Shown piece by piece: positions 15,880 through 51,306 of a DNA stretch of 64,000 nt. The stretch spans positions 12,412,501-12,476,500 of the forward strand of contig NC_091669.1 in NCBI RefSeq assembly GCF_042453785.1. The letters run 5' to 3'. The DNA comes from Malus domestica. Its lineage: Eukaryota > Streptophyta > Magnoliopsida > Rosales > Rosaceae. The translations under genes were made by a program, and so were the position numbers. The notes under the pieces are model-generated. The model was not told the origin of the DNA, did not search any database, and saw only the letters and a list, made by a program, of their open reading frames with translations. The first letter of the stretch is position 1. Every line of letters begins with the position of its first letter.

Positions 15880-16083
15880 TTCTTTTTCATCGATCGATTT
15901 CTTTGAGTGTCGATATTTTCTGTCATGTCGGTATTTAGGAATTTTCTTGAATGGAAATGGTGGGACGATTTGGACAAATTTCCCAAATTTTCTTTTGGGA
16001 TTATTTATAGTGTATTAAGCTATTACTTCATTCTTTTAAGCCCCATTTGGATGGACGAATTTTCTTTGAAAACATAATAATTA

Positions 16084-17050: not shown

Positions 17051-17466
17051 TTATAATTATATCCACATGGAATGCCCTCTATCCAAACGGGCCCTAACTT
17101 TTCAAAAGCACAAATCTTTTTGGTGCTTCTACTTTGTTGCTTGACAAACACGTAATAGGCTATTTATTGGGTTTCAGGAAATTGTTGGCTCAAGTTCTTT
17201 TGAGGAGAAACTGTTAGTGTTACCCAATTTGGTATCTGTATGGTGATCGAGTCGTTGATCGGGATGAAAGAAATAAGGTTTGGATAAAATGAGAGTTTCA
17301 TATATGGGCGTACCTAATGAAAAGGGTTTGAAAACTTTAAGTTTTAACAAAAATGACAAAATAAAGGGTAAAGTGAATAGTATCAGGATTGACGTTTTAG
17401 TGTAAAATGTGGTTTTTCGTTAAAGTGAACAGTACCGAGATTTACTATCTTTATACATCCCCACAA

Positions 17467-18375: not shown

Positions 18376-21300
18376 TCAGATGTAATGGCAATCAACTTCA
18401 ATGTGCTTTGTTCTTTCGTGGAATACCGGATTTGAAGTTATATGCATGGTAGCTTGGTTGTCACAAAACAAGGACATAGGTTCCTTGTTGACGCAACCAA
18501 GATCCGTTAGGAGACTTTTTAACCATATTAATTCACAAGTCGTGGCTGCCATGGCTCTATATTTAGCCTCAGCACTTGATCTTGTAACCACGATTTGTTT
18601 TTTACTCTTCCATGTCATAAGATTGCCACCAACAAAAGTACAGAAACCAGTGGTAGACTTGCGATCGAGGGCATTACCCACCCAATCAGCATCAGTGTAT
18701 GCCATGATATGATTTGAACCATGTTTTTGCATGAGTAAACCTCTGCCAATGGATCCCTTCAAGTATCTGAGTATCCTTTTGACACTCTCCCAGTGAATCA
18801 TCGAGGGAGAGTGCATAAATTGACTGACAAAACTTACAGAATAAGCAATATCAAGTCTGGTGATAGTGAGGTAGATGAGTTTTCCTACCACACGTTGATA
18901 AACCCTAGGGTTTGGTAGTGGTTCACTGGGTGCATCTATTTGAAGTCTACTCACCAAAGGAGTAGAAGCGGGCTTGCAATTCAACATGCCAGCTTCATCC
19001 AATAGATCAAGAACATACCTCCTTTGATTTAAGAACAAACCCTTGAAGGAAGTAGCCATTTCAATGCCAAGAAAGTACTTTAAGATTCCCAAATCCTTAA
19101 TGGAAAATTGTTGATGAAGAGAGGATTTAAGGGCATTGATTTCTTCTATGTTATCATCTGTTATAATAAGATCATCAACATATATAAGAACAACTAGTTT
19201 GCCACTTTTACCAGTGCGAACAAATAACGAGGAATCGGCATGGCTCCTTGTGAATCCTGCAGCTTCAAGGACTGAACTTAACTTCGAGTACTAGGCTCAG
19301 GGAAATTGCTTCAGTCCATATATGGCCTTATGGAGCTTGCAAACTTTGTTAGTTTCATGCTTTTATGGATGTCCGGAAGGAAGCTTCATGTACACTTCCT
19401 CTTCGAGGTCACCATGAAGAAATGCATTCTTCACATCCATTTGAAATAGGGACCAATCGAGATTGACTGCCACAGATAACAACACTTGTACAGTACTCAT
19501 TTTGGCTACGGGAGCAAATGTCTCCTTGTAGTCAATGCTATAAGTTTGAGTAAAGCCACGGGCTACTAAACAAGCCTTATGTATTTCAATATTGCCATTT
19601 GAATGAAACTTGGTCTTGTATATCCACCTACTCCCTACGACCCTTTTTCCTTTTGGAAGATCAACCACTCCATGTTTGGTTGTTGTTCAGTGCTTAAAGC
19701 TCTTCTTTCATAGCTTTCTGCCATACTGGAATGTGAACAGCTTCATTAAAATTTCTTGGTTCATCATTAGTGGACAGTTGATGTAGAAAGGCTGCATGGG
19801 ATGGTGACAATTTTTGATAGGTTAAGGCTTTGGAAATGGGATGTCTTGCCGTGTACGTAACATACTCTTGCAGCCTTAGAGGAGGATGCCTGTCACGAGT
19901 AAGGTTTCATCGTGGTGCCAAGACAGGTTGAGGAGTAGTGCTTGAGCTTCCTTGATCAGGAGATGTTTCCTCATCATCATGTTGTTCTGAGTGGTGGTCG
20001 AGATAAACATTGAATTCATGTAAATTTGCTGGAGTGGGCAGAGGAAAAATGTCCAGTAGGTTCTCCCCCTGAGGTTCTTCACTGCTATTTTTGTGAAAGA
20101 ATGAAGCATTCTCACCAAATCGAACATCCCTTGAGACACCAATCTTTCCATTAAGAGGATTGTAATATTTGTATCCTTTTTTAGTGCTCGAGTATCCCAT
20201 GAAGGCACTCTTGACAGCTCTGGGATCGAGCTTGTCTCGATGTGCAGCTTGAATATGGACATAACATGTGCATCCAAAAGTTCTCAGGTGTGAGATGTCA
20301 ATAGTTCTTCCCTTCATTACTTCAACAGGTGATTTGAATTCAATACACGGGTAGGTAACCTGTTGATGATGTAGGCTGCAGTGAGGAGAGCCTGAGACCA
20401 AAACCTTCTAGGAACATGCATTTGAAGCATAAGAGATCTGGATTTCTCTAATAAGTCACGGTTTTTTCTCTCGGCTACACCATTCTGTTGTGGTGTACCA
20501 ACACAGCTGGTTTGATGTAAAATCCCATGATTGCTCAAATAATTAGACATATTGTTGGATGTATACTCAGTGCCATTATCCGATTGTAAAATGTTTAACT
20601 TAGAGGAGAATTGGTTTAAGATTAATTGATGAAAGTCTTTGAAAGCATCAAAGAATTCACTTTTGAATTTTAAGAGGTAAATCCAAGTGCAACGAGAATA
20701 GTCATCAATAAAGGTGGCATAATATTTATATCCATCAAATGATTCTACACGGGAATGACCGCAAATATCTGAATGAACAACCTCAAACAGTTTACTGGTT
20801 CTAGACTTGGAAGAAACAAAAAGAATCCTAGTAGCATTTGACATTTGATAGACTTCACATTCATGTGTGGCTTTACAAAAATTTGGAAATAGTTGTTCAT
20901 CACAGGTTCTGAGGGATGCCCCAATCGAAGGTGCCAAAGTTGGTACTCTTGAGGAAGACTTAGGCTGGCAAAAGCATGCTTAACAGGCTTTAGCTTCTTT
21001 GAAAGATAGTAGAGTCCATTCAATAGAAACCCTTCACCAATCTTCTTCTAGGTGACTCGGTCCTGAAATACAACATTGTGAGGAGAGAATATGGCAAGGC
21101 AATTTAGTGTGTTTGTGAGTTTTCCTATGGACAAAAGCTGGAAAGGAAATGAAGGCACATACAAAGCTGTTGACTCAATCTCATCACTTAACAGTTTAAG
21201 TTTACCTTTTCCTATAATAGGTTCTCCTTTCCCATTTGCTACAGACACAAGTGAAGACTCAGGCATATTTTGAAACTTATCTAAGCAAGAGGACTTATTT

Positions 21301-21400
21301 GTTATATGATCTGTGGCACCTGAGTCTATGATCCAACAATCATGCGTAATTTCATTGAGAGCAGTGGAGAGGGCAGAGATAATACCTGAAACATTGTCTT
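18376..21400 (-). pseudogene. Copia A pol region (protease-integrase-RT-RNase H), frameshifted
   Basis: Read on the minus strand from high to low coordinates. A protease DSGAT motif lies near 21320. Integrase pieces (about 20937-20317) show LWHLRLGHPS, then the DDE-type sites HSDICGHS, SDNGTEY and NGVAERKNR. RT pieces (19668-19363) contain QMDVKNAFLHG, with a YVDD active-site motif near 19180 in another frame. RNase H (19092-18376) has DADWVG and RSSAEAKYRAM. At least four frame changes and an in-frame TGA near 18375 separate the parts, so no single polyprotein can be made. Confidence 0.85.
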
Positions 21401-21488
21401 AGGTTGTGGTCTTATTCAAGAAGCCTGCAAATTTTCCAAGCATGGCAGTAAGATTCTTAGAGATCACTTCCTTTTCCTCAGTGGTGCA

Positions 21489-22475
21489 TCATCTCCTTTG
21501 AAGAAAGCTTGCAAATTCATTTATCAAATCTATGGGATTTGCAGTGAAGTTTGATAAACCACCAGTCAACGAGCTAGTTGAATGGAGAGCATTTGGAAAA
21601 ATTCCCTTGCCTTTTTTTATCATTCTTCCTTCCTTATCAAACTTTGGCTTTAACTCCGGATCTAGGATCCAACATTTTTCCCTTATGTGCCCATTCATGT
21701 TGCAGTAGGTACATTTCCAATTTGCCTTTTTTCTAGTAAAAAAATTTTCACCAGTGTGTTTATGATTGTTGGTGAAAACCCTTGCCTCAGAGTTGGACTT
21801 GGGTTCAATGTGCATGCCTTTTCTTTGAGTTTCCTCCTGTTGGACAGCTTGACAAACACTATTAAACGAAGGCAGATCTGCAGTCATCAGCAAGTGACTT
21901 CTAGGATCTTTATATTCTGCTCCAAGACTTGCCAGAAGTTGAAACACTTTGTCTTCATCGGCTCTTTTGAGGAGTGTAGCGGAATCTGTTGTATGTGGAC
22001 GATACATGTCAAGTTCGTTCCACATGGACTTAATGCTCCCAAGGTGTTGCATGAAGGATTGATCACCTTGCCTTAGCCCAGTGGGATCCTTCTTGAGTTG
22101 AAATATACGAGCAGCATTGTTTTGGCTGCCATACATCTCTTTGATAGATTCCCACAAAACATGAGAGGAGAGTTCAGACAGATTAGGTTCCTTAGAGTTA
22201 AGTATCCAGGACATAACAAGCTGATCGTTTGCATGCCATGCACCATACGATGTAGAGGATGGTTCAGGTGCTTTAATGCTTCCATTGGCATACCCTAGCT
22301 TCGATCTTCCACCTAGGGCAAGAGAGATGGCGCGAGACCATGGTAGGTAATTAAACTCGTTTAATAACACTGAGCACATGTGCAGATTTGGATTGATTTC
22401 ACCATGAATCACACTGGAAGATAAAGTGTTTGACGAGCTTGCTGCCTCTCGGCTTAAAGTCTGGTTTTCTGCCAT
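21489..22475 (-). CDS. Copia A gag, 328 aa open frame
   Basis: This is the capsid-like Gag of a Ty1/copia element, which packages element RNA. It has an N-terminal region with LNEFNYLPWSRAISLALGG, the UBN2/retrotran-gag core with ALLKRADEDKVFQLLASLG-type sequence, and a zinc knuckle CTYCNMNGHIREKC (C-x2-C-x4-H-x4-C) near residue 255. The ATG is about 108 bp inside the 5' LTR. The frame is open to TGA-side decay before protease. Gag has survived better than pol in this copy. Confidence 0.85.
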   Translation of the reverse strand: MAENQTLSREAASSSNTLSSSVIHGEINPNLHMCSVLLNEFNYLPWSRAISLALGGRSKLGYANGSIKAPEPSSTSYGAWHANDQLVMSWILNSKEPNLSELSSHVLWESIKEMYGSQNNAARIFQLKKDPTGLRQGDQSFMQHLGSIKSMWNELDMYRPHTTDSATLLKRADEDKVFQLLASLGAEYKDPRSHLLMTADLPSFNSVCQAVQQEETQRKGMHIEPKSNSEARVFTNNHKHTGENFFTRKKANWKCTYCNMNGHIREKCWILDPELKPKFDKEGRMIKKGKGIFPNALHSTSSLTGGLSNFTANPIDLINEFASFLQRR

Positions 22476-23544: not shown

Positions 23545-24037
23545 TGTAAGATTGTGAGTGTCAAGAAGAATGACTTCTGGTTCTCAACAGCTTGTAATTC
23601 GGTTATGAGTTATTGTTGAGAAGATTACGCTATTACTTGGCTGAGGTTGAGAGTCCTAATGACATGCAACTATATGTGAGAAACCTTATCAGGTATTTGA
23701 CAAGAGTTCAGCAGCAAGTTGGACTGCTGCGAAACCCTAATTGATATGGTATATCTGGGTATCGGTTGATAGGCCTGGTATCCGAATTGTTAGCTATATA
23801 TAAGGAGCATCCCTGCACTCACGGCATCAATCCATTACGAGCAAAACCCTATTCTATGCTGGAACTTCAGGCCGTTGAGTGTAGAAGATTCCTTATGAAA
23901 CCCTAGCAGTCATGGCTTCTTCTTCTTCCTCCACTTCAACAGATAAGTTTAATATAATTAGTTAATCTCTATTTTATATTGATTTGATTTATTCGTGATC
24001 CTAATGTCTTGTTGTTGTGATTTCAGAATGTCTTACA
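23545..24037 (+). repeat. Left LTR of the inverted-LTR element
   Basis: 493 bp with terminal TGTAAGA/TCTTACA inverted repeats. Near the 3' end there is an ATG followed by a Ser-rich start (MASSSSSSTSTDKF), as in many Copia gag leaders, followed by an intron-like end GTGATTTCAG. Confidence 0.88.
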
Positions 24038-24039
24038 TG

Positions 24040-24052
24040 TGGTATCAGAGCC
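24040..24052 (+). promoter_or_regulatory. tRNA-iMet primer-binding site
   Basis: TGGTATCAGAGCC lies 2 bp inside the left LTR, on the plus strand. It supports a retroelement rather than a DNA-transposon origin. Confidence 0.85.
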
Positions 24053-25990: not shown

Positions 25991-27071
25991 GTACTGCTGA
26001 ATTTTGGTACTTCAAAACTAGTTTTGTTATGTGATATTGTTTTCACTTATTTGTGCACATCTATTGGTACCGATTATTATACAAGTTTATTATTCCAATA
26101 TGTCTTTATTTAATGCGAATTCTTAATACTAATGACTTTTATTAGACAACACTGATTAAATTATTGATTTAAAGATGTATTGGTTTGTTTTGCTTAAACC
26201 AATGTTTTGTTTAAACCAATGTTTTGTTTAGTCATCAATTCTGATTATGATGATAATTGTCTTTTGAAAGAAAATTGGAAAGTGGCATCAGTTTACTAAT
26301 TAATCATTTTGGTCCCTATCGAATAACTGAATAACCATATTTCCTCTTTCGAGAACTCTATTGTTCAATGTCAATAACGACATATTTTGTGTCTGATTGA
26401 ATCTTTTGAGAATCATTGAATATCCAACAAAACGGTTATTTAATACTGTTCTAAAGGATTATTTTGAAAAATCAGAATTCTAATTTATATGGTGAATATT
26501 TTTGTCCCAATGGGAATTTTAGGACATAACTCACCAATTATAAATTAGTATTATAGCAAATCATAAAGTACTTCTAACATATTTTCATCTGGCCAAAGTT
26601 GTTGAAGCTATATGTATTTTGTGTATTTTATGTTTTGGCTAGCTATGCAGGTATTTTCTTTGCATGATTAGTTTCTGCCCAAAGGTGTAACAATCATGCA
26701 ATTTGGAGTTAGTTCGATCCTCCACAACTCGACTACATCCATGATGAATCTTGCAGAATCGAGAATGAGTAGGTAAATTTGCCAATATTTTGCCTTAATT
26801 TTATGTGAGTTCTAAATTGGATTAAAATTATTGTTGGAAAATTGATGTTGTTGAGATATCTATGTGTTTACCTTAATCGACTTTGTTTTAGAATTAAAAA
26901 AAAAAAATTTGAGTTTGGATTCTTTTATTAGGTTTCATTTTAATTTATGACCTAATCTTTAACACATATGTGAGTCTTCTCTCATACACTAAAATAAATT
27001 TTGTAGCCATTGGTTTATCTAATCACTTGTCACTTTTAGATCACTTAATAATGTTGAGATATTGTTCCACA

Positions 27072-27564
27072 TGTAAGACATTCTGAAATCACAACAACAA
27101 GACATTAGGATCACGAATAAATCAAATCAATATAAAATAGAGATTAACTAATTATATTAAACTTATCTGTTGAAGTGGAGGAAGAAGAAGAAGCCATGAC
27201 TGCTAGGGTTTCATAAGGAATCTTCTACACTCAACGGCCTGAAGTTCCAGCATAGAATAGGGTTTTGCTCGTAATGGATTGATGCCGTGAGTGCAGGGAT
27301 GCTCCTTATATATAGCTAACAATTCGGATACCAGGCCTATCAACCGATACCCAGATATACCATATCAATTAGGGTTTCGCAGCAGTCCAACTTGCTGCTG
27401 AACTCTTGTCAAATACCTGATAAGGTTTCTCACATATAGTTGCATGTCATTAGGACTCTCAACCTCAGCCAAGTAATAGCGTAATCTTCTCAACAATAAC
27501 TCATAACCGAATTACAAGCTGTTGAGAACCAGAAGTCATTCTTCTTGACACTCACAATCTTACA
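27072..27564 (-). repeat. Right LTR of the inverted-LTR element
   Basis: 493 bp, the reverse complement of 23545-24037 with very few differences. Inside it the minus strand continues TGTGGAACAATATC, so after TGTGG it departs from the primer-site sequence next to the left copy. Confidence 0.88.
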
Positions 27565-29217: not shown

Positions 29218-29399
29218 TGCAGAAACTGTTGAAGAAGATATTTCTCATTCATTTCTTAATTGACAGTACACAGAGATATATATAGTCACAAAGACTCTTT
29301 ACATAAGTGACCTTATCTTCTACAACTAATTACACAAATACCACAACTAACTATTTACTGTTGTAACTAAATTGTGACTGGTTTAGGTCTCTCAATACA
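29218..29399 (-). repeat. Copia B 3' LTR
   Basis: 182 bp, TGTATTG...CTGCA on the minus strand, essentially identical to 33933-34114. Confidence 0.9.
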
Positions 29400-31790
29400 C
29401 CCCCTCAAGCTGAGCTTGGGATCAATTGAAGAACCAAGAGGAAGCTTGGATTTTAGAGCAGCAAATCGACCTTTGGACAGAGACTTGGTGTGTATGTCAG
29501 CGAGCTGATCCTGACTACAAACAAAGTGAACCTTGATGAGATTAGCTAAGACCAACTCGCGAATATAATGATAGTCAATCTCCACGTGTTTAGTTCGGGC
29601 ATGAAAGACCGGATTAGAAGCAAGAGAGATGGCTGAAATGTTATCACACCAGAGAGTGGGAGCCTGAGAGAGAGGAAAACCAAGGTCACGAAAATTTTTA
29701 CAGATCCAAGTCAGTTCAGCTGCAGTGTGGGCTAGAGATCTGTATTCCGCCTCTGTGGATGACCTTGCCACAGTAGCCTGTTTCTTGGCACTCCAACTGA
29801 TAAGATTGGATCCGAGAAAGACATTGTAACCACTAGTAGAACGGCGATCAAATAGATAGCTAGCCCAGCTGCATCGGAGAAGGCTGTGAGATTAGTGGCA
29901 CCCTTTCTGAACCATAGACCTTCAGAGACAGTACCCTTGAGATAACGAAGAATTCGTTTGGCAGCTTGCATGTGTTGGTCTCGAGGAGCATGCATGAACT
30001 GACAGATTTGATTCACAGCAAACGAAATATCGGGACGTGTCCATGTCAAATACTGTAAACCACCAACAATAGATCGATACTCAGTTGGATTAGAGAAAAG
30101 ATGACCACTGTGATCCAATTTGTTAGAGCCAAGGGGAGTGCAGCAAGGCTTCGCACCAGCCATATTAGTTTTCCGGAGAAGATCAAGTAAATACTTTGTT
30201 TGATGGAGGAAGAGACCTGTGGAAGATCTTTGAATCTCTAAACCCAGGAAGTAGTGCAGTGGACCTAAATCCTTGACTGGAAAAATATCACTGAGATTTT
30301 GAATGAAGAGACTGCATAAGGAAGAGTCAGGTCCAGTGACTAAGATATCATCGACATACACAAGCACCATGACAGGAGTAGGACCAGGGAGAACAAATAA
30401 GGAAGCATCGGAGGAAGATTGTTGAAAACCAAGCTGAAGAAGAGCTTGAAACAGTTTGTCAAACCAAGCCCAAGGGGCTTGTTTGAGACCATAAAGGGAT
30501 TTCCTTAATTTGCAGACATGATGCGGCATAGTAGGATCAGAGAAACCGGGAGGCTGCTGCATGTACACATCTTCCTTCAAATCACCATGAAGAAAGGCAT
30601 TACTGATGTCTAACTGATTTAGAAACCAATTGAACTGCACAACAAGGGACAAAAGGATTCTAATTGTGACTGGTTTAGCCACAGGACTGAAGGTCTCTTG
30701 AAAATCGATACCTTCCTGCTGATGATACCCCTTTGCAACTAAACGAGCTTTAAAGTGCTCAACAGTACCATCAGGTTTCTTCTTGATTCGGAACACCCAC
30801 TTGCAGCCAACCACATTGTAGGAGGAAGATGGAGGAACAAGGGTCCAGGTGCCTGTTGATTGTAATGCATTAAACTCATCTTGCATGGCAGATCTCCAAT
30901 GAGCATGTTTAGAGGCTTGCAGATATGTAGTTGGAATAAAGTCAATATCAGATGGAAGAGGATGTTTGGTAGCTGGATAAACTTTGGGCTTGAAGATACC
31001 AGCTTTGGAGCGAGTGATCATAGGGTGAGTATTGGAAGGGGGCAGTGACATAGTTGTTGCAGGGGAAGATACGGATGCATTAGTCAGAGAATCTGTACTT
31101 GGAGCAGCAGTAGGAGGAATGGACTCTTGAGTATGGCCAACGTGTCCAGGAGGAACACCAGTATGCTGAGGAACGGAAAACTGCAGATCCATGGGAGCGA
31201 TAACAGAGTCTGAAGACAGAACATGGATGGTAGGAGAAGACTGAAAAGGATATGTTGCTTCATCAAACTGCACATGTCTGGAAATATAGAGACGATTAGA
31301 GACTGGATCAAGGCATCTATATCCTTTGTGCTGTAAACTGTACCCGAGAAACACACAGCTTTTGCTCTTAGCATCCAGCTTGGAATGAGTGTAAGGTTTG
31401 AGCCACAGGAAACATCGACAGCCAAAGACTTTGAGTCTGGAGTAATCTGGGGGCTTGAAGAAGATTAATTCCCAAGGAGATGTAGAAAGGCCAGAGATTG
31501 GCAACCTGTTAATAAGATACACAGCCGTGGAAAAAGCTTCCACCCAATAAAGATGTGGAACATTAGAAGCAACAAGTAATGTACGGGCAGTTTCCACAAT
31601 ATGGCGGTGTTTTCTTTCAGCACAGCCATTTTGTTCAGGAGTGTGAGGACATGTTAATCGATGAAGAATACCATGAGTGTGAAGAAAAGACTCAAACTTA
31701 GCACCAATGAATTCACCCCCTGAATCGGACTGCACAACTTTGATTTTATTTCCAAGTAGATTTTCTACATATTGTTTGAATACAACAAAG
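29367..31790 (-). pseudogene. Copia B integrase C-part, RT and RNase H, two frameshifts
   Basis: The main open frame (31735-29732) starts in integrase at SDSGGEF and continues through NGCAERKHRHIVETART. Next come the RT domain with FKARLVAKGYHQQEG, QLDISNAFLHGDL and the catalytic YVDDILV, then the start of RNase H (TAFSDA). A one-base change near 29870 moves the reading to a second frame (29771-29367) that holds the rest of RNase H: RSSTEAEYRSLAHTAAEL and CDNISAISLASNPVFHARTK. Another one-base change near 31770 separates it from upstream integrase. The rest is uninterrupted, unlike copia A. Confidence 0.88.
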
Positions 31791-33132
31791 TAGAATAGGC
31801 ATCAGATTTGGCCTTTAATGGAAATAACCAACTATATCTACTGTAATCATCTACAAGCAACAAGTAGTACTTAAAGCCACTAGGAGAAGTGATGGAGGCA
31901 GGACCCCAAACATCACAGTGTAGTAGTTGAAGACTGTGAGTACTTGTAGAATTGGCAGAACCAAAAGGAAGCTTGTGACTTTTAGCTAAAGCACAATCTG
32001 AGCAGAAAAGATCACCAGCAGGTTTGCCTTGCACGACAAGCTTATTTCCTGAAAGAACCTTGCGAAAAATAGAAGAAGATGGATGACCCAATCTTCGGTG
32101 CCAAATCTGTACAGGAGCTTTGACACTTACTAAAGCCGAGGGTGATGAGGAGGTGGGAGGACTAGAGCCTTGAAGAGGATAGAAGCCATCTTCAACTCGT
32201 CCCCGCAAAAGCGTCTTCCCCGAAACTCGATCCTTTACAGTGGATCCATCAGGGTCAAGAGTCAAGGCACAATTATTATCTTTTAAAAATTGATAGGCAG
32301 ATAATAAGTTGTGTTTCATAGCAGGTACATGTAAGACATTACGCAACTTAAAGGAAGTATGAGATGTATCTAAAGAAGAGATACCAATATTGTGAATAGG
32401 CAGACCTTTACCATCTCCTATATAGACCTTGTCTTCACCAGTGTAAGGAGAGATAACAGAGAGATTTGCAATGTCATTCGTGATATGTGAGGTGGCTCCA
32501 GAATCCAATAGCCAAGATGGGGATGGTTTGGATGAGTAGTGAGCACAAAGAGCTGCAAGTTTGGCTGGTGGCACCCGTCCAAAGATCTCAGGGTTCATCC
32601 TGTCAAAGCAATCAATTGCTTCGTGGCTGGTGGAACCACATATTTGACAGGTGGTCTTGTGATTTGATGAAGAACCTTGGTTGTGAGATCGGGAGCCTTG
32701 ATGAAAGGCACGAGGCTGACTTGGACGATAAGTACCAGTGGAGTTGCCACGTGAATTACTGACAGTTCGATTGCCTCTGAAAAAATTGCGATTGTTCCGG
32801 CCTCTATTAGAATTGTACCGAGAAGAAGATTGAAGAGGCTGACTATATGCAGCAAATGCCTGTGAAGAAGGCGTTGGGAGCAAAGGTGATTGAGACTGAA
32901 CAGAGAATGCTTGAAAGGGCTCCGTAGCAGTGGTGGACAGAGTGTGCTTTCGACGAGCCATAGAAAGCTCTTTGGTCAGCAACAGACCATGCAATTCATC
33001 AAGAGAAGTAGAAGACAATCGCAGCATGATGGAGTCAATGAAGGACTCGAATTCATCAGGAATACCGTGAAGCGTTGCAGCAATGAGATCACGATCAGAT
33101 ACAGTGGCGCCAGCAGCATTGAGAGAATCCAA
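31765..33132 (-). CDS. Copia B gag C-part, protease and integrase N-part
   Basis: An open frame of about 455 codons. A Gag C-terminal half with a zinc knuckle CQICGSTSHEAIDC (near residue 165) is followed by an aspartic protease SWLLDSGATSHIT, the GAG-pre-integrase region with IWHRRLGHPS, and CSDCALAKSHKLPF. It ends in the integrase core (HCDVWGPA, VDDYSRYSWLFPL). It is in the same frame as the upstream gag piece, separated only by a TAG. It ends at a one-base frameshift into the RT part. Confidence 0.85.
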   Translation of the reverse strand: MDSLNAAGATVSDRDLIAATLHGIPDEFESFIDSIMLRLSSTSLDELHGLLLTKELSMARRKHTLSTTATEPFQAFSVQSQSPLLPTPSSQAFAAYSQPLQSSSRYNSNRGRNNRNFFRGNRTVSNSRGNSTGTYRPSQPRAFHQGSRSHNQGSSSNHKTTCQICGSTSHEAIDCFDRMNPEIFGRVPPAKLAALCAHYSSKPSPSWLLDSGATSHITNDIANLSVISPYTGEDKVYIGDGKGLPIHNIGISSLDTSHTSFKLRNVLHVPAMKHNLLSAYQFLKDNNCALTLDPDGSTVKDRVSGKTLLRGRVEDGFYPLQGSSPPTSSSPSALVSVKAPVQIWHRRLGHPSSSIFRKVLSGNKLVVQGKPAGDLFCSDCALAKSHKLPFGSANSTSTHSLQLLHCDVWGPASITSPSGFKYYLLLVDDYSRYSWLFPLKAKSDAYSTLLYSNNM

Positions 33133-33147
33133 AATTTCCTTGATTTG

Positions 33148-33636
33148 CTATAGATATGCCGAGATCGATTGAGAGCCTTTTTGAATCGATTGAAGACGAG
33201 AACGAAGCTGGTGAATGTGAGCTTCAGAGACGCCACCAAAGCGTTGTTCAAGCTTCTGCCAAAGTTCTCGAGATGTGGACACCCCTACCGTGAAGGGAAT
33301 GAGATCTTCGGATAAAGTCGAGTTGAGCCAAATCAAGAGGTTTTGATCTTTTTCAAACCACTGCTCAAATGCTGGATTCAGGGAGCGATCAGGGAGAAGG
33401 GGAGCCGGACATGGCTCAGTACCGTCGACGAGGCCAAGAAGTTTGTATCGGCGCAAGATCGGAGAAAATAACGCACGCCATGGAAGGTAATTAGTGTGTT
33501 TGAGCTTGATTGGCACCATGCTACCAATATTCTGGATCGTAAGAGACATATACGAGTTCTGAGGATTTGCAGAGAAATTAGGGTTTGGCGACGGAGACGA
33601 AGAGTCAGAGGGGGAGGCCATGATATACAAGCGCAA
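33148..33636 (-). CDS. Copia B gag N-part, 162 codons
   Basis: N-terminal Gag with the typical VPIKLKHTNYLPWRALF block and a LWQKLEQRFGG motif. It is closed by TAG just before the in-frame continuation at 33132. The single stop suggests a point mutation, or less likely suppression. The ATG near 33621 (start of MASPSDSSS) fits Copia gag starts better than the more upstream in-frame triplet. Confidence 0.8.
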   Translation of the reverse strand: MRLYIMASPSDSSSPSPNPNFSANPQNSYMSLTIQNIGSMVPIKLKHTNYLPWRALFSPILRRYKLLGLVDGTEPCPAPLLPDRSLNPAFEQWFEKDQNLLIWLNSTLSEDLIPFTVGVSTSRELWQKLEQRFGGVSEAHIHQLRSRLQSIQKGSQSISAYL

Positions 33637-33932
33637 GATGCGAGAGAGAAGGAAGAATCAAAGACAGAAAACACAAGATCGATCACGAAATCGATCGAGA
33701 AAGAGAGAAATTGATCAAAAAATCACCAAATCAACGAAATGGTAAGAAAACTCAGATGTATCACCGACTCAAAATTGAAAGAAATTGTAGACAAAAAACA
33801 CCATGACAGATCAAGAACAGTGATCAGAATACCAAATCAACGAAGAAATATGATCAATGTGAACAGAAATCAGAGAAGTAGAGCGGAAGAAATGGAGGAT
33901 CGAATGCCGGAAGGCTTTTGGCGATGAAACCA

Positions 33933-34114
33933 TGTAGAAACTGTTGAAGAAGATATTTCTCATTCATTTCTTAATTGACAGTACACAGAGATATATATAG
34001 TCACAAAGACTCTTTACATAAGTGACCTTATCTTCTACAACTAATTACACAAATACCACAACTAACTATTTACTGTTGTAACTAAATTGTGACTGGTTTA
34101 GGTCTCTCAATACA
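33933..34114 (-). repeat. Copia B 5' LTR
   Basis: 182 bp, the partner of 29218-29399. Confidence 0.9.
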
Positions 34115-41261: not shown

Positions 41262-42246
41262 CTATGTATCAAGATGCCATGAATATACAGCATAAACAGA
41301 GGAAAATCGGGCATTAGTGTTGGAATGAGTAAACCGTACCTGACCCGTTTGGGGTCTGAGGCTTAGTCGAGTCTTGTCCCATGGAGTCCCGCCCTTGGGG
41401 ACGGGCGGAGGGGACTTGTTAAAATCGTCCAAGTAATAATACGTCCCCGCAGCTTTTTGTTCCCTATCTTTGGTTGAGTTCAACTTGTTGATTCTCGGGC
41501 GATAATTAGTAGGATCACGTCTGAATGTGATATCCAGTTGCTGCATTTGCCACATTACAAAACTTACTCGGATTTATTCTTGTTTATGTAAAAAAACGTT
41601 AAAGACGAAAAGGTTGCAAGACTTACAGATAAGAAAAGGTTCATCCCGGTTAACAATGATCGAGGAGAAATGGCAGTACAATCAACTGCTGGCTTCCCGT
41701 CATAGACGATCACTCTATCTGCCAGGTACGTAGCCATAATGAAATCGTGCTCAACCACAAACGCACTTTTCTTCGCATGGAGGATAAACCTCTTTATGAC
41801 TTTTGCAGCGACGATGCGCTGCTCAGAGTCAAGGTACGCGCTTGGTTCGTCAATCAGATAGATATCTGCAGGCTGTAATATGAAGCGAAAAATAAAGACA
41901 TACGTTATAAGATTCCATAAGTAAAAGCAGATGACGCATCATAAACTTGATCATAAATTAAAACTGGTTACCTGTCCAAGGCATAGACATAAAGCAACCC
42001 TTTGCATCTCTCCACCGGAGAGTTTCTCAACTTTTTGATCCAATAAATTTCGATTTGGAGAGGCTTCATCACGTCTGTCACAAACTGCTGATGAGCGAAT
42101 ATTGTTTGGAAGCCAGTCCTTGACAGTTAGTTTGGACTTTGGACTAATTTTCTGAGGCTTGTAAGAAACTTGAAGATTTGGCATCTCCAAATCAGCATCG
42201 GGTTTCAGTATACCAGCCTACAATTTGAACGAGTACAATGACTCTA

Positions 42247-42860
42247 CACAACAACAACAACAACAAAGCCTTTTCCCACTAAGTGGGGTCGGCTATATGA
42301 ATCCTAGAACGCCATTGCGCTCGGTTTTGTGTCATGTCCTCCGTTAGATCCAAGTACTCGAAGTCTTTTCTTAGAGTCTCTTCCAAAGTTTTCCTAGGTC
42401 TTCCTCTACCCCTTCGGCCCTGAACCTCTGTCCCGTAGTCACATCTTCGAACCGGAGCGTCAGTCGGCCTTCTTTGCCCATGTCCAAATCACCGGAACAG
42501 ATTTTCTCTTATCTTTCCTTCAATTTCGGCTACTCCTACTTTACCTCGGATATCCTCATGCCCAATCTTATCCTTTCTCGTGTGCCCACACATCCCATGA
42601 AGCATCCTCATCTCCGCTACACCCATTTTGTGTACGTGTTGATGCTTCACCGTCCAACATTCTGTGCCATACAACATCGTTGGCCTCATTGTCGTCCTAT
42701 AAAATTTTCCCTTAAGCTTCAGTGGCCTACGACGGTCACATAACACGCCGGATGCACTCTTACACTTCATCCATCCAGCTCGTATTCTATGGTTGAGATC
42801 TCCATCTAATTCTCCGTTCTCTTGCAAGATAGATCCTAGGCAGCAAAAACGGTCGCTTTT
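42247..42860 (-). mobile_element. 5'-truncated RTE 3' fragment with tail
   Basis: The minus-strand frame (42860-42480) encodes the RTE C-terminal region, with [20 protein letters not shown] and [19 protein letters not shown], closely similar to the end of the long ORF at 46564-49722 but with several differences. It includes the 3' UTR and short TTG tail that the long copy lacks. Confidence 0.85.
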
Positions 42861-44299
42861 TGTGATCTTCGCTAGATTGCTCCGGTCATTAGTGTGGATA
42901 AGTATATAAATAAATAGAGATAGGAAAGCAAACACAAGATGTACGTGGTTCACCCAGATTGGCTACGTCCACGGAATAGAAGAGTTCTCATTAATTGTGA
43001 AGGGTTTACACAAGTACATAGGTTCAAGCTCTCCTTTAGTGAGTACAAGTGAATGATTTAGTACAAATGACATTAGGAAATATTGTGAGAGAATGATCTC
43101 GTAATCACGAAACTTCTAAGTATCGGAGTGTGGTATCGTCTTGACTTGCCTTATCTGTCTCATAGGTAGATGTGGCATCTTCTCTGGAAGTACTCTTCCT
43201 CCATCCAGGGGTGGTATCTTTAACTGGTGGAGATGCACAAGGTAATGTATCAATTTCACTTGAAGCTTACTTGTAGTTTCAGGCTTGGTCAAGCGCGATA
43301 CAAACCATGTAGTAGGAGTCCCCCAAGTCGCCGAGCTAGGGGATCTGCTGAAAGAGGTGACAGACAAGGTAAGCAATCAGAGCTCCGGCTGATTGTTCAC
43401 CTTCTCCCCATCTTGCAGCAGCATGAAGGATAAAGAGAAGAAAAATGAGAAGAGATGATATGGGATACTTTTGCTTTTGAAGAAGTAACTTTCCACAGGC
43501 TTATTCTTGAACTGAGCTGGAGGGTTTTCTGGTTTCCTCCAGAGCCGACTGAAGAATTTGAGGGTCAAAACAAGTCCATCAAATCTAGAGTACGTTCGAC
43601 CCTGCTGATATGGGATACTTTTGCTTTTGACAGAGTAATGGATGTATCGGCACGTGTGCTGTTACGCTTGTCTCCACATGCTTCCTTGTATCATTCGCAC
43701 TTGCCCTATCTGTTCCTCAAGCAGATGCGGTATCTTCCCTGGAAACATAAGATGTTGAAGATGAGTACTCGAGAGCAATGCCAGGTAAGTAATCAGGTAA
43801 GGGGTTCCAGGCAGTCAGTTCCTGGTTGGAAGCTTGATTCCAAGTGCTGACTGATTGCTCTCTTTCTCCTTGTCTTGCAGGTAAAAACAAGGCCAAAGGA
43901 AAAGACAGGGAAAAAGCATGATATGGGATACTCTTGCTTTTAACCCTGATGATATGAGATATTCTTGCTCTAGTATAGCTTGTTTGCAGAGGTATTATCG
44001 GGGGGAAAGAAAGCTGAATATTTCGAAAGGCTTCGTTGGGAGTGCCCTCTCAGATATGAGAAAGGGTTGAGCATTTTTGCAGGTCTGCCTGTCCGTTGGG
44101 GATGGAGGTCGACATATATAGGAGTCTCCCTAACAACAAGTAGTAATGCTATTCCTTTACCCTGCTTGGTCATAGCACGGTAGTGGGAGCTGCCAACTTC
44201 ACATGTTTTAACTATGTCAGAGCACTTTGAAAAAGTGGTCTGTGGTATCTGGCTCTCGAGAAGTCTTCGACAGAATGCCCATAATTTCCGCAAAGCTGA

Positions 44300-45480
44300 G
44301 TGTGCGTATGACAGGTGCTGACAAGGCTAGAAAAGTAGGTGCCTCTTCGATTTCTGAGATCGGCCCTCGTGGTCTCTGAGCAGCCCAGCTTTTGAGAAAG
44401 CGAGCGTCTCTTCGATTGATTCGGAGAACGATGCATCTTCGATTTTTAAGAAAGCAATCATGCTGGGGGTCTGGCTCTCGAGATTCGGGGAGCAGTGTCA
44501 CTTCGATTTTTGAGAAAGTAATCATGTTGGGAGTCTGGCTCTGGAGATTCGGAGGGCGGTGCCTCTTCGATTTTGGAGCAAGCAATCTTGTTGGGAGTGT
44601 TTTCTCGAAAGTGAGTAAAGGTTGGACATGTTTGCTAGTCTACCTTGCCACGAAGCACAGAGGTTGACACACAGGGATTTTCCAATTATCCAGCAATGGT
44701 ACTGTTCCTTTACCCTCTCTTCGATTTTTGAGAAAGTAGTCATGTTGGGAGTCTGGCTCTCGAGATTCGGAGGACGGTGCCTCTTCGATTTTGGAGCAAG
44801 CAATCTTATTGGTAGTGTTTTCTCGAGTGTGAGTAAAGGTTGGGCATGTTTGCTAGTCTACCTTGCCACGAAGCACAGAGGTTGACACACAGGGACTTTC
44901 CAATTATCCAGCAGTGGTACTGTTCCTTTACCCTTGTGGGTAATAATATGGTAGCTAGACCTTCAAAATTTATGGGTCTAAACTTTGTTAGTGCTGTTTC
45001 TTTGCTATTCTTTTACCTTTCTTGGTCAGAGCGATATAGTGGGAGCTGCAAGCTTTACGTGCTCAATTTTGGCAGAGAACTTTGGCAAAGTTATCTGTGG
45101 TACCCATGAGCTATTGTTGCGTGTGGGAAGTGGGTGATTGAACAGTAAGATTCATGTGTTTTCTACTTCCTCAGAAGTTTTCGACAGAATGCCCATAATT
45201 TCCGCAAAGCTGAGTGTGCGTGTGACAGGTGCTGACAAGGCTGGAAAAGTAGGTGCCTCTTTGATTTCTGAGATCGGCCCTCGTGGTCTCTGAGGAGCCC
45301 AGCTTTTGAGAAAGCGAGCGCCTCTTCGATTTCTGGGATCGGCCTTCGTGGTCTTTGAGCAGCCTAACTTTTGAGAAAGCAAACGCCTCTTCGATTTCTG
45401 AGATCAACCCTCGTGGTCTCTAAGCAGCCCAGCTTTTGAGAAAGCAAACGCCTCTTCGATTTCTGAGCAGGCGCCTCTTC
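44300..45480. repeat. Tandem and nested repeats with CTCTTCGATTT core
   Basis: A ~215-bp unit with GGAGTCTGGCTCT(C/G)GAGATTC, GCACAGAGGTTGACACACAG and TTTCCAATTATCCAGCA occurs twice (about 44520-44710 and 44740-44920). A ~60-bp unit built on CTCTTCGATTTCTG(A/G)GATC and AGCCCAGCTTTTGAGAAAGC occurs about five times (44340-44410 and 45240-45460). The repeats are non-coding on the plus strand. Confidence 0.8.
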
Positions 45481-45628
45481 GATTTCTGAAGCTCCGTCGA
45501 GTGCAGATTTTTATAGGGGCTGGCATTAAGTTCCAAAGCACACTTGAATCTCCACCAGTAGAAGCTCCATTCTTGCACTTCTAAGATCTTGATTTGTCCA
45601 ACCTCTTCTCTCTTCAACACCTTTGAAA

Positions 45629-46303
45629 ATGTCTGGCCCCTCCGACCGTCGTTTTGACTTGAACCTTGTTGAAGAGGCAGCCCCGCCTTCTCCAGACAAC
45701 ATATGGCGCCCATCCTTCGTCTCCCCTACTGGTCCTCTTACCGTTGGGGATTCCGTGATGAAGAATGATATGACTGCTGCGGTGGTGGCCAGGAACCTTC
45801 TCACTCCCAAAGATAACAGACTACTTTCCAAATGGTCTGATGAGTTAGCTGTTAAGGATTCGCTGGCTCTCAGTGTTCAGTGTGCAGGTTCTGTGTCTAA
45901 TATGGCCCAACGCCTATTTGCTCGAACCCGCCAAGTTGAATCATTGGCGGCTGAGGTGATGAGTCTCAAACAGGAGATTAGAGGGCTCAAGCATGAGAAT
46001 AAACAGTTGCACCGGCTCGCACATGACTATGCTACAAACATGAAGAGGAAGCTTGACCAGATGAAGGAAACTGATGGTCAGGTTTTACTTGATCATCAGA
46101 GATTTGTGGGTTTGTTCCAAAGGCATTTATTGCCTTCGTCTTCTGGGGCTGTACCGCGTAATGAAGCTCCAAATGATCAACCTCTGATGCCTCCTCCTTC
46201 TAGGGTTCTGTCCAGTACTGAGGCTCCGAATGATCTCCCTCCGGTGTCTTCTCTTTCTGGAGCTCTACCGACTGCTGAGACTTCTCCTAAGCAACCCTTG
46301 TGA
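45629..46303 (+). CDS. 224-aa coiled-coil protein of the inserted element
   Basis: The ATG at 45629 starts MSGPSDRRFDLNLVEEAAPP. An N-terminal polar region is followed by a helical heptad region (about residues 95-165) with QVESLAAEVMSLKQEIRGLK and HENKQLHRLAHDYA, a likely coiled coil. A C-terminal tail of about 60 residues has three related Pro/Ser-rich repeats around EAPND. No transmembrane or catalytic motif is visible. Related coiled-coil frames appear in non-autonomous retroelements of Rosaceae as far as I recall; its role is unknown. The reading frame is intact within an otherwise non-coding element. Confidence 0.6.
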   Translation: MSGPSDRRFDLNLVEEAAPPSPDNIWRPSFVSPTGPLTVGDSVMKNDMTAAVVARNLLTPKDNRLLSKWSDELAVKDSLALSVQCAGSVSNMAQRLFARTRQVESLAAEVMSLKQEIRGLKHENKQLHRLAHDYATNMKRKLDQMKETDGQVLLDHQRFVGLFQRHLLPSSSGAVPRNEAPNDQPLMPPPSRVLSSTEAPNDLPPVSSLSGALPTAETSPKQPL

Positions 46304-46563
46304 AGGCTCCCTCTTGTTTGTTTATTTTGACTCATGTATATGTACATATTTGTAGCTTGTCGGGGATATCAATAAATAAGTTTTCCTTCATTTCAACGTA
46401 TTGTGTTAAATACACCAAAACCTTCTTCGCTAAGTTCTTTGAATTTTCTTTTGTTGAAGCTTGTATGTTGAAGCTTTCTGAGTGAAGCATGTAGGTTGGG
46501 GTAGTGTTCCCTTAATTTCCCGAGTGAGGAAAACTTCTCGGTTGGAGACTTGGAAAATCCAAG

Positions 46564-49500
46564 TCACTGAGTGGGATCGGCTATATGAATCTTAGAACGC
46601 CATTGTGCTCGGTCCTGTGTCATGTCCTTCGTTAGATCCAAGTACTCTAAGTCTTTTCTTAGAGTCTCTTCCAAAGTTTTCCTAGGTCTTCCTCTACCCC
46701 TTCGGCCTTGAACCTCTGTCCCATAGTCGCATCTTCTAATCGGAGCGTCAGTAGGCCTTCGTTGCACATGTCCAAACCACCGTAACCGATTTTCTCTCAT
46801 CTTGCCTTCAATTTCGGCTACTCCTACTTTACCCCGGATATCCTCATTCTTAATCTTATCCTTTCTCGTGTGCCCACACATCCAACGAAGCATCCTCATC
46901 TCCGCTACACCCATTTTGTGTATGTGTTGATGCTTCACCGCCCAACATTCTGTGCCATACAGCATCGCTGGCCTTATTGCCGTCCTATAAAATTTTCCCT
47001 TGAGCTTCAGTGGCATACGGCGGTCACACAACACGCCGGATGCACTTTTCCACTTCATCCATCCAGCTTGTATTCTATGGTTGAGATCTCCATCTAATTC
47101 TCCGTTCTTTTGCAAGATAGATCCTAGGTAACGAAAACGGTCGCTCTTTGGTATTTCTTGATCTCCGATCCTCACCCCTAACTCGTTTTGGCCTCCATTT
47201 GCACTGAACTTGCACTCCATATATTCTGTCTTTGATCGGCTTAGGCGAAGACCTTTAGATTCCAACACTTCTCTCCAAAGGTTAAGCTTTGCATTTACCC
47301 CTTCCTGAGTTTCATCTATCAACACTATATCGTCTGCGAAAAGCATACACCAAGGAATATCATCTTGAATATGTCCTGTTAACTCATCCATTACCAACGC
47401 AAAAAGGTAAGGACTTAAGGATGAGCCTTGATGTAATCCTACAGTTATGGGAAAGCTTTCGGTTTGTCCTTCATGAGTTCTTACGGCAGTCTTTGCTCCT
47501 TCATACATATCCTTTATAGCTTGGATATATGCTACTCGTACTCCTTTCTTCTCTAAAATCCTCCAAAGAATGTCTCTTGGGACCCTATCATACGCTTTTT
47601 CCAAATCTATAAAGACCATGTGTAAATCCTTTTTCCCATCTCTATATCTTTCCATCAATCTTCGTAAGAGATAGATTGCCTCCATGGTTAAGCGCCCTGG
47701 CATGAACCCGAATTGGTTGTCCGAAACCCGTGTCTCTTGCCTCAATCTATGCTCAATGACTCTCTCCCAGAGCTTCATTGTATGACTCATTAGCTTAATA
47801 CCTCTATAGTTCATGCAATTTTGTACGTCGCCCTTATTCTTGTAGATAGGCACCAAAGTGCTCGTTCGCCACTCATTTGGCATCTTCTTCGTTTTCAAAA
47901 TCCTATTGAAAAGGTCAGTGAGCCATGTTATACCTGTCTCTCCCAAAACTTTCCACACTTCGATTGGTATATCGTTTGGGCCTACTGCTTTTCTATGCTT
48001 CATCTTCTTCAAAGCTACAACCACTTCTTCCTTCCGGATTCTACGATAAAAAGAGTAGTTTCTACACTCTTCTGAGTTACTCAACTCCCCTAAAGAAGCA
48101 CTCCTTTCATGTCCTTCATTGAAAAGATTATGAAAATAACCTTTCCATCTGTCTTTAACCGCGTTCTCTGTAGCAAGAACCTTTCCATCCGCATCCTTGA
48201 TGCACCTCACTTGGTTTAGGTCCTTTGTCTTCTTTTCCCTTGCTCTAGCTAATTTATAGATATCCAACTCTCCTTCTTTGGTATCTAGTCGCTTATACAT
48301 ATCGTCATAAGCCGCTAACTTAGCTTCTCTCACAGCTTTCTTCGCTTCTTGCTTCGCTTTTCTATACCTTTCACCATTTTCATCGGTCCTATCCTTGTAT
48401 AAGGCTTTACAACATTCCTTCTTAGCCTTCACCTTTGTTTGTACCTCCTCATTCCACCACCAAGATTCCTTTTGGTGTGGGGCAAAACCTTTGGACTCTC
48501 CTAATACCTCTTTTGCTACTTTTCGAATACAACTAGCCATGGAATCCCACATTTGGCTAGCTTCCCTCTCTCTATCCCACACACACTGGGTGATTACTTT
48601 CTCTTTGAAAATGGCTTGTTTTTCTTCTTTTAGATTCCACCATCTAGTCCTTGGGCACTTCCAAGTCTTGTTCTTTTGTCTCACTCTTTTGATATGTACA
48701 TCCATCACCAACAAGCGATGTTGATTAGCCACGCTCTCTCCTGGTATAACTTTGCAATCCTTACAAGTTATACGATCCCCTTTCCTCATTAGGAGAAAAT
48801 CTATTTGTGTTTTTGACGACCCACTCTTGTAGGTGATCACATGTTCTTCTCTCTTCTTAAAGAAGGTGTTGGCTAAGAAAAGATCATATGCCATTGCAAA
48901 ATCCAAGATAGCTTCCCCATCCTCGTTTCTCTCCCCAAAACCATGGCCACCATGGAAACCTCCATAGTTGCCTGTCTCCCTGCCCACGTGTCCATTTAAA
49001 TCTCCTCCTATAAATAACTTCTCCGTCTGAGCAATTCCTTGCACCAAGTCTCCAAGGTCTTCCCAAAATTTATCCTTCGAACTCGTATCCAACCCTACTT
49101 GAGGTGCGTACGCACTAATCACATTGATAAGTTCTTGTCCTATTACAATCTTGATTGCCATGATTCTATCTCCTACCCTCTTGACATCTACAACATCTTG
49201 TGTCAAGGTCTTGTCCACGATGATGCCAACACCGTTTCTTGTTCTATTTGTGCCCGAATACCAAAGTTTAAACCCTGAGTTTTCTAGATCCTTTGCCTTA
49301 CTACCAACCCACTTAGTTTCTTGTAGGCACATAATATTTATCCTTCTCCTCACCATAACTTCCACTACTTCCATAGATTTTCCCGTTAAGGTTCCTATAT
49401 TCCACGTTCCTAAACGCATTTTGCTCTCTTGAACTCTACCCTTCTGTCCTAGCTTCTTCACCCTCCCCCGTCTAATAGGATCAAAGTACTTCTTTTGTGT

Positions 49501-49722
49501 GTCCCGTGTAAAGTTGATAGGAGCATATGCTCCCAAACAACTTTGAGTGGAGTCGTTCGAAAAGAAGTTTCTATGGCCCCCTTGCTCATTTAACACTGCA
49601 TCCGGGTGCCGATGGAGATACAGCGACCCTTGCTCATTTATCACTGTGCTCGGGCCACACAGCGCGCCACTTACGGGTGACGCCCTAGCTTTAGCGCGAT
49701 TTTGTTCTGGATTCATTTTCAT
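46564..49722 (-). CDS. RTE-type LINE polyprotein (endonuclease-reverse transcriptase), 1052 aa
   Basis: A single open frame. An apurinic-type endonuclease runs from about residue 102 ([11 protein letters not shown]), with [20 protein letters not shown] and the final [10 protein letters not shown] (the SDH-like site). The reverse transcriptase (about 590-860) has [52 protein letters not shown] and the catalytic FADDIVLI. The C-terminal region ends [19 protein letters not shown]. This set and the single ORF fit the plant RTE clade. The frame is intact, but its natural stop region is replaced: the sequence leaves the RTE consensus at ...ADPT and uses a TGA from the adjacent element. The normal 3' UTR is missing here. 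It nicks target DNA and copies its own RNA. Confidence 0.92.
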
Positions 49723-51306
49723 AAGGATTCGACGTGATCATGGAGTGCCGGCTGTCGACTACCTGACGCCCTCCCCCTCCTCCTTTATCCGGGCTTGGGA
49801 CCGGCAATGTAAGATACATAGGCGGAGTTAACGAGTACAATGACTCTAATATATCAAAATGAAACTGAAAATCTGATCCAACAGCAAGAAATGAAAAAAA
49901 GCATACCAGCATACGGATAAATGTGGTCTTCCCTGTTCCATTCTCACCGAGCATCACAATAATCTGAGAATCGGTAAATTCACCCTCAATCACGTGAAGC
50001 TTGAACTCTCCCAAATTTTTCGTCATTGAGGGGTATCTGTACAGCTCACATGTCTCAGTTTCCTCATAAATTTCGCGTGGAGTCTCAGAAACCTAGAAAA
50101 GATAACAACTTAATCACAAGATACTGATAAGTAAAAAAAACAGCATTTACATTAACATAACTTATAACCTTACCTTAAAAGTCAAAGATTCATCCCGGAA
50201 ACGTAGATTTTCTGTAGGAACAAATCCAGAGAAGAAGATGTTGATTCCTTCTCTAACCGAGAAAGGTGGAGTTACAACTCCATATGCGCCCGGTTTCCCA
50301 TATAAACAGCATCTGTGATCAGATAAGTAATCAAGGATGCTCAAATCGTGTTCCACAACAATTACGTAGCTGAAATATGTGAGGAAAATGCCTATTACTT
50401 AAACATGCACGGTTAAATATAAATGGAAAAAGATCCTGTAAATATATAATCAATGAAAATTTGAGGCAATAAGATGGATAAGAAAACAAACCTATCAGGC
50501 CTGATCAAAGAACGGATAACTCTCGCTGCTTTGAGCCTTTGCTTCACGTCAAGATAACTTGAAGGTTCATCAAACATATATACATCTGCACTCTGCATGG
50601 CAGAAACAGCAATCGAACCTCTGAAGCTCCCCACCAGACAATTCGCCAACATTGCGATCCAGAACCATGTATAACTCAAGATCAAGGCAGAGTTCTTCCA
50701 TCATCCTCCTCTTGTCTTTCTGTTTTAGAATCTCCCCTACACTGCCTTCAATTACTTTTGGAATGTGGTCTGTGTATTGGGGCTTTATAACGGCCTGTTT
50801 AAGAAAAGACAAGATTTATAATTTTTGAAGAAACCTTATTATTGCACACACGAGCATAAAAGAGAGGACATCACACGAGCATGAAAATCATAAGTCACCT
50901 TCAACTTATCTGGCAAGAGACGAATAAAATAACTTTGCAGCTCCGATCCTGGAAAGTAAGTCAAGATTTCTTGCCAATCTGGAGGATTCTGCAAAAGGAT
51001 CAAAGATATATAGTCTTTAAAAAAAACTAACACATCAACTAAACTTATGAAAAGTTATCATATACTTAGCATAAAATAAAACGATATGTAAAGAGTATTA
51101 CATTGAAACGGCCCAAATTTGGATTCGAACTGCCTGACAAATTTTTTAGGGCAGTTGACTTCCCAATGCCATTAGTTCCGACCAAACCAAGAACTTCCCC
51201 TGGCCTAGGGACCGGTAACCTGTAAGTTGAAATTGTGTTAGATTCTTTCTACCATCTTAAAACACTAAAACATGAAACTGATCGAAGTTCCCGACAAAGT
51301 TATAAG

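Follow-up and report, generated by a model that had tools for sequence, protein, structure and literature searches.

A chimeric, high-copy RTE-type LINE family of apple with an antisense LTR-retrotransposon fragment and a second RTE 3' end

We analysed a 64,000-nt stretch of the Malus domestica genome (NC_091669.1, positions 12,412,501 to 12,476,500 of the forward strand; hereafter the window, to which all coordinates refer unless another locus is named), in which an intron carries a long interspersed nuclear element (LINE) insertion made of two RTE-type parts, RTE-B and RTE-A, with foreign DNA between them. Because the junctions between these parts are numerous in the genome, their order and spacing are usual there, and other full-length copies have target duplications of their own, the window almost certainly holds one full-length (7,583 bp), ordinary copy of a LINE family that was already chimeric and high in copy number, and that moves as a unit. 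In the LINE sense the family consists of the RTE-B 5' end, a frame for endonuclease and reverse transcriptase (RT), 3.4-4.5 kb of antisense long terminal repeat (LTR) retrotransposon sequence, ~616 nt of RTE-A, and a (TTG)n tail. The fullest explanation that we can offer is that this chimeric family arose once, by 3' transduction, and is autonomous, to which we give a probability of roughly 0.6.

Structure of the insertion

The insertion is bracketed by AACGAGTACAATGACTCTA, an exact 19-bp direct repeat at 42228-42246 and 49830-49848 with no further occurrence in the window. When the flanks are joined without the insertion, they align across the paralogous intron near 55.9-56.0 kb, and the intron is then 87 bp long, compared with 86 bp in the paralogue, with GT..AG in both. 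A preliminary description of this DNA had claimed that one 19-bp target site duplication (TSD) brackets all three parts, that removal of the insertion restores an 87-bp intron, and that the parts entered together. The exact repeat and the intron lengths bear this out, and the single TSD and the paralogue alignment support the arrival of RTE-B, the LTR fragment and RTE-A in the host intron through one LINE-type event. The features of the insertion are listed below, with loci elsewhere given by our L numbers.

42218-49906, minus strand: host intron that took up the insertion, 87 bp without it (flank alignment with the paralogue)
42228-42246, no strand: left TSD copy, 19 bp (exact repeat; empty site aligned with the paralogue)
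42247-42266, minus strand: (TTG)n tail of the composite LINE (from the sequence; equal tail type in 8/8 J1 loci fetched)
42247-42862, minus strand: RTE-A, the 3'-terminal 616 bp of a second RTE, 5'-truncated (one in-frame stop ahead of the natural stop)
42851-42875, no strand: junction J1, RTE-A 5' break against LTR position ~50, with shared bases TTTG (2,503 genome matches)
42863-46564, plus strand: probable captured LTR-retrotransposon fragment, made up of a partial 5' LTR and internal region and oriented against the LINE (relatives in L005, L007 and L013)
44259-45331, plus strand: region with a ~914-bp repeat (one more unit in L024, L027 and L030 than in the window; J1-J2 spacing in two size groups)
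45629-46303, plus strand: open reading frame (ORF) belonging to the captured LTR element and running against the LINE (Pfam gives only weak coiled-coil-type hits, below cut-off; related DNA in L013)
46552-46580, no strand: junction J2, LTR internal region against RTE-B 3' end (2,413 genome matches)
46564-49737, minus strand: 1057-codon frame, open from stop to stop, for APE-type endonuclease and RT (open in 4/4 full-length composites read)
46565-49829, minus strand: RTE-B, a nearly full-length RTE-type LINE without the last ~12 nt and tail (5' end equal in L030 and 5/10 further copies)
49830-49848, no strand: right TSD copy, 19 bp (exact repeat)

Read on the minus strand, the order is RTE-B (49829-46565; 3.27 kb), the 3.7-kb foreign stretch and RTE-A (42862-42247). 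The 1057-codon frame of RTE-B matches the Pfam families RVT_1 (E 2.7e-35) and Exo_endo_phos (E 3.2e-9), with LINE-1 ORF2 and R2 among its matches in the PDB. We place the LINE in the RTE clade by its architecture, with endonuclease and RT in a single frame, by its (TTG)n 3' tail, which is of the type found in plant RTE families and is present in the window and in 8/8 further loci, and by general knowledge of the clade. The preliminary description had called this RTE full-length; it is nearly so, with only the last ~12 nt and the tail missing. That description had also assigned the only TTG tail to the second RTE 3' fragment, and the only (TTG)n tail of the insertion is indeed the end of RTE-A. 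Between A (42277-42862) and B (46565-47150), 586 bp align without gaps and with 45 mismatches (92.3% identity), and over this length there is one internal in-frame stop in A and none in B.

The 3.7-kb stretch most likely represents part of an LTR retrotransposon lying antisense to the LINE, judging from relatives that we drew from 20 random 10-kb stretches of the host genome, of which L005, L007 and L013 contained them. L005 harbors a solo LTR, a 514-bp sequence with TG...CA ends and a flanking 5-bp repeat, AATTT (the repeat being read by eye). Window positions 42859-43100 (242 bp) match positions 50-291 of this LTR at 92.6%, and because the rest of the L005 LTR was matched merely in a short piece close to its end, the captured LTR belongs to another subtype. 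L013 has the same LTR start and, ~5.5 kb along, related DNA containing the ORF start MSGPSDRRFDLN. What the preliminary description had treated as an element is thus an incomplete antisense fragment, which begins ~50 bp inside the 514-bp LTR and ends at 46564. This start rules out the insertion of a solo LTR or of a complete LTR element into the RTE, and among the repeats listed for the window there is no long terminal repeat pair at the ends of the insert, as a complete element would have. By eye, no second TSD pair was found around the 3.7-kb part at the printed junctions; no script search was made. No relative could be confirmed in viral, phage or prokaryote collections (four stretches fitted a pattern in one search, but none held up), and the plasmid collection contained no relatives of the 3.7-kb part.

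Copies of the composite across the genome

The 651-Mb, 19-contig assembly was searched with patterns for both junctions, and reversed patterns served as controls. The J1 pattern (25 nt, up to 3 mismatches) has 2,503 matches in the genome and the J2 pattern (29 nt, up to 3 mismatches) 2,413, and both reversed controls gave 0. Positions were taken from the first 100 matches listed for each junction, all of which are exact and lie on contigs C1 and C2. For the J1-J2 spacing, 59 of the 100 listed J1 places were used (45 on C1 and 14 on C2), the other 41, on C2, being excluded as lying beyond the end of the J2 list. Among the matches listed, 39 of the 59 exact J1 places are accompanied by an exact J2 no more than 20 kb away on the same strand. 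The preliminary description had suggested looking in the assembly for another locus with the order RTE-3.7 kb-RTE, and this order and spacing proved to be usual: J1 and J2 lie 3,431-4,470 bp apart at 38 of the 59 places, with one more pair at 14.1 kb. The 38 paired sites form two size groups of 19 each, at 3.4-3.8 kb and 4.2-4.5 kb. Starting from J2, the 79 exact places on C1 include 50 for which the matches listed show no exact J1 close by; the expected J1 part was fetched for three of these 50, and each proved to be the same composite, with an alignment that spans A, J1 and the LTR piece and with J1 one visible base off the pattern at two of them. When 301 bp of RTE-B were searched as DNA against the whole genome, no match was obtained, but very common words are skipped in this search, so that the result is no evidence of rarity. 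Many copies of one composite are present at independent sites. For an apple assembly, PMC13334179 puts the share of LINEs at 4.1%.

Two sets of copies were examined at their ends, with positions mapped onto the window copy as window-equivalents. The first set comprises eight of the 45 listed exact J1 places on C1, fetched with ~8 kb beyond (L023 to L030). All eight start at the identical tailed 3' end and continue through A into the LTR piece, while their 5' ends lie at 44206 (L023), 46447 (L024), 49355 (L025), 43411 (L026), 47664 (L027), 43509 (L028), 46585 (L029) and 49829 (L030). L030 is of full length and has its own 18-bp target duplication, and truncated L026 has one of 11 bp; with the window included, three of nine copies in this set show a clear target duplication. 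The second set consists of ten plus-strand places on C1 with exact J1 and J2, the first ten of the 13 pairs remaining after three already fetched, chosen blind to their 5' ends and fetched at the edges only. Five of these ten end precisely at the 5' end of the window copy, each with a target duplication; four of these duplications were found by script (16-19 bp, a few of them with bases of the tail or the element counted in), and the fifth (13/14 bases) was read from the printed flanks, where the script gave only 7-mers. One further copy ends at 49805 without a target duplication, and for the remaining four the 421 bases fetched contain no RTE 5' region, these copies being truncated or shifted by an internal change. 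A fixed 3' end combined with variable 5' ends and independent target duplications is what LINE insertion by target-primed reverse transcription leaves behind, so that the composite moves as one unit.

Two loci of the first set have further peculiarities. In L027 (1-9000), a composite copy lies within an inverted copy of the same family, and, judging by the alignment coordinates, ~26 bp of the host copy are missing rather than duplicated. In L028 (1680-2116), a 5'-truncated composite is joined directly to an RTE 3' fragment without a clear target duplication; the junction is possibly a template jump by the same enzyme. The flanks of L028 share just a 36-bp stretch, 92% alike, which may be a repeat of its own.

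The identical open 1057-codon frame is present in all four full-length copies read, namely the window copy, L030, and L051 and L052, which are two of the five full-length second-set copies, and it is broken in the 5'-truncated L025. The ratio of nonsynonymous to synonymous substitution rates (dN/dS) between the window copy and L030, L051 and L052 is 0.20, 0.23 and 0.21, respectively (Fisher p 1e-8 to 3e-7), and in pairs with L025 it is 0.24-0.34 (p ≤0.001). The window copy and L030 differ at 22/586 sites in A, 61/3,026 in the compared LTR parts and 55/3,263 in B. Because differences between composites accrued inside the composite lineage, barring recombination, these ratios indicate selection on the frame in its composite form. 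Purifying selection on the frame between composites in turn suggests that autonomy was retained, and on the evidence of its sequence the chimeric LINE is apparently autonomous.

Origin of the chimera

The preliminary description had also proposed comparing the A and B copies, with clear divergence pointing to two source templates. In addition to the 92.3% identity in the window, an unrooted tree separates the nine A copies from the four B copies, with identities of 92.3-94.3% between A and B, 94.9-98.8% among A copies and 98.0-99.3% among B copies. The single plain RTE compared, in L026, shares 92.0-93.5% identity with A and 93.0-93.9% with B, and its branch in the unrooted tree falls between the two. 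A and B thus probably stem from two RTE templates, and the data fit one ancestral event that involved both, for which a single plain copy is no proof. Duplication of one RTE after insertion is ruled out by the identity between A and B and by their grouping with A and B copies elsewhere.

We consider 3' transduction to be the more probable founding route. The chimera would have arisen once, from a founder RTE (B) that had already lost its last ~12 nt and its TTG tail. Transcription of B would have run on into a neighbouring, oppositely oriented LTR element and reached the tail of a 5'-truncated RTE (A) previously inserted in the LTR of that element, and RT would then have primed with the tail of A. 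The resulting LINE would be autonomous, would have gained a very long 3' region, and would later have been amplified. J1 is compatible with the ordinary 5' truncation of a LINE within an LTR, with four shared bases (TTTG). Read-through is favoured because genomic neighbours lie in either orientation, whereas reported template-switch chimeras join transcripts of the same orientation. The need for the tail of A fits the survey table of PMC3747384, where 7/7 plant RTE families end in (TTG)n or (TTGATG)n.

An unlikely but still substantial alternative is a founding template switch, in which RT primed on RTE-A RNA would have jumped to an antisense LTR transcript and then to RTE-B RNA near its 3' end, with the product amplified afterwards. 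Double jumps that give tripartite LINE chimeras with direct repeats are known in Magnaporthe grisea and mouse, but same transcriptional orientation is among the chimera hallmarks listed in the same source (PMC2104539), and the LTR piece is antisense to the LINE, which speaks against a jump onto ordinary sense mRNA. The four-base overlap TTTG at J1 and the shared-looking motif at J2 would suit such jumps, as would the extra RTE piece at the 5' end of L028, which lacks a clear target duplication and is possibly another jump; two jumps would nonetheless be required, each into internal positions. The motif at 46563 had been put forward in the preliminary description as favouring template switching, but it belongs to a junction found in thousands of places, so that it cannot alone reveal how the ancestor was formed.

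Less probable again is an origin at the DNA level: an RTE insertion would have recombined, or been joined by repair, with a locus or circle bearing an RTE 3' fragment beside LTR sequence, and transcription and retrotransposition would have followed. A single crossover would likewise be expected to leave 586-bp direct repeats around foreign DNA. However, the 92-94% identity of A and B and their separate grouping speak against this, as a recent crossover in one RTE would leave closer copies; no search for a switch point inside A or B was made. The formation of the chimera by transduction or template switching during the present insertion, as the preliminary description had it, could account for the one TSD that brackets all three parts, but is rejected on the 2,503 and 2,413 junction matches and on the other full-length copies with TSDs of their own. 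Repeats of this kind can mislead assemblers, but an assembly artefact or collapsed repeat is next to impossible given the same order elsewhere with site-specific TSDs and flanks that here rebuild a normal intron.

Several observations weigh against our explanation of an autonomous family founded by 3' transduction. The loss of the last ~12 nt of B has to be assumed, and J2 lies within a CACT(A/G)AGTGGG stretch, where template switching is plausible too. The grouping of A and B rests on one plain RTE copy and an unrooted tree. Among L030, L051 and L052, dN/dS is 0.42-0.56 and not significant (p 0.06-0.25). Six of the nine first-set copies, with the window counted, lack a clear target duplication, and the 11-bp repeat of L026 carries little weight alone because, in a TSD test on 400 random placements, two scored at least 10 (289 scored 0).

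Other elements, known systems and significance

Three other repeats in the window are described here in their own right. Two 498-bp arms, 23545-24042 and 27067-27564, are 100% complementary and 3 kb apart; the left arm is LTR-like and is followed by TGGTATCAGAGCC, which we take to be primer-binding-site-like, the right arm repeats the left one in inverted orientation, and ATTTG is seen by eye on both sides of the pair. The arrangement resembles an LTR element of which one LTR is inverted and the 5-bp target duplication retained. At 29218-34114 there is an element, presumably Copia-like from its frames, with 182-bp direct terminal repeats; because these are 99% alike and the open frames are long, it is probably young. 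Finally, the 489-bp arms at 16074-17060, 88% complementary and 9 bp apart, form a foldback or large miniature inverted-repeat transposable element (MITE)-like element. Outside the apple genome, the plasmid collection gave one distant RTE match, at 20187-21691 of NZ_CP104070.1 (68-70% identical), too distant to place A and B. This record, filed as an Alicyclobacillus fastidiosus plasmid, contains LINE sequence of RTE-like type and has the IncFIA type together with catA1, a combination typical of bacterial artificial chromosome (BAC) vectors. Its true source is probably a plant BAC clone, entered by mistake as a plasmid from a bacterium.

The chimeric LINE resembles plant RTE LINEs with (TTG)n tails, such as RTE-1_STu (named in PMC3747384), in its one-frame endonuclease and RT and in its tail, and its 5' truncation and target duplications are as in LINEs generally. 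In contrast to plant RTE LINEs, it adds 3.4-4.5 kb of antisense LTR sequence and a second RTE 3' end after the frame, and its first 3' end is broken. The WEIRD / Mg-SINE / MGL chimera of Magnaporthe grisea is similar in its three parts, its one direct-repeat pair and its use of LINE machinery, and PMC2104539 reports one tripartite element, composed of three transcript copies. The apple composite, in contrast, has more than 2,400 matches per junction, an open RT frame in full-length copies and an antisense middle part. A second kind of comparison is offered by the SVA and LAVA elements of hominoids, which are likewise composites multiplied as a unit by LINE machinery. These are described as non-autonomous and mobilised in trans, whereas the present composite, with its frame open in 4/4 full-length copies read, is predicted to encode its own RT and endonuclease. 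In human L1 3' transduction, transcription reads through into flanking DNA and a downstream 3' end with its poly(A) is used; here, the downstream end would be the TTG-tailed 3' end of another RTE, and the DNA transduced would have become a lasting component of a large family.

Our survey of the literature on RTE/LINE transduction, template switching, composites and Malus/Rosaceae found no such family in titles and the starts of abstracts, most subscription papers and all repeat databases lying outside its coverage, and the family may be catalogued under another name. Owing to the 586-bp repeats and the LTR sequence, annotation pipelines could file its pieces as LTR elements or as separate families. 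LINE chimeras and composites in the literature surveyed are single events or non-autonomous, whereas the apple chimera has retained an open RT frame and has multiplied. The family also provides a natural test of which part of the RNA is recognised by a plant RTE enzyme, as the end of B seems unused while the end of A, 4-5 kb further on, is used. We tentatively suggest, at a little under even odds, that an autonomous plant LINE swapped a broken 3' end for a transduced antisense LTR piece and a second RTE 3' end, and became a major, perhaps dominant, RTE lineage of its host. If this is true, LINE 3' ends would be exchangeable as modules through 3' transduction, and then kept by selection.

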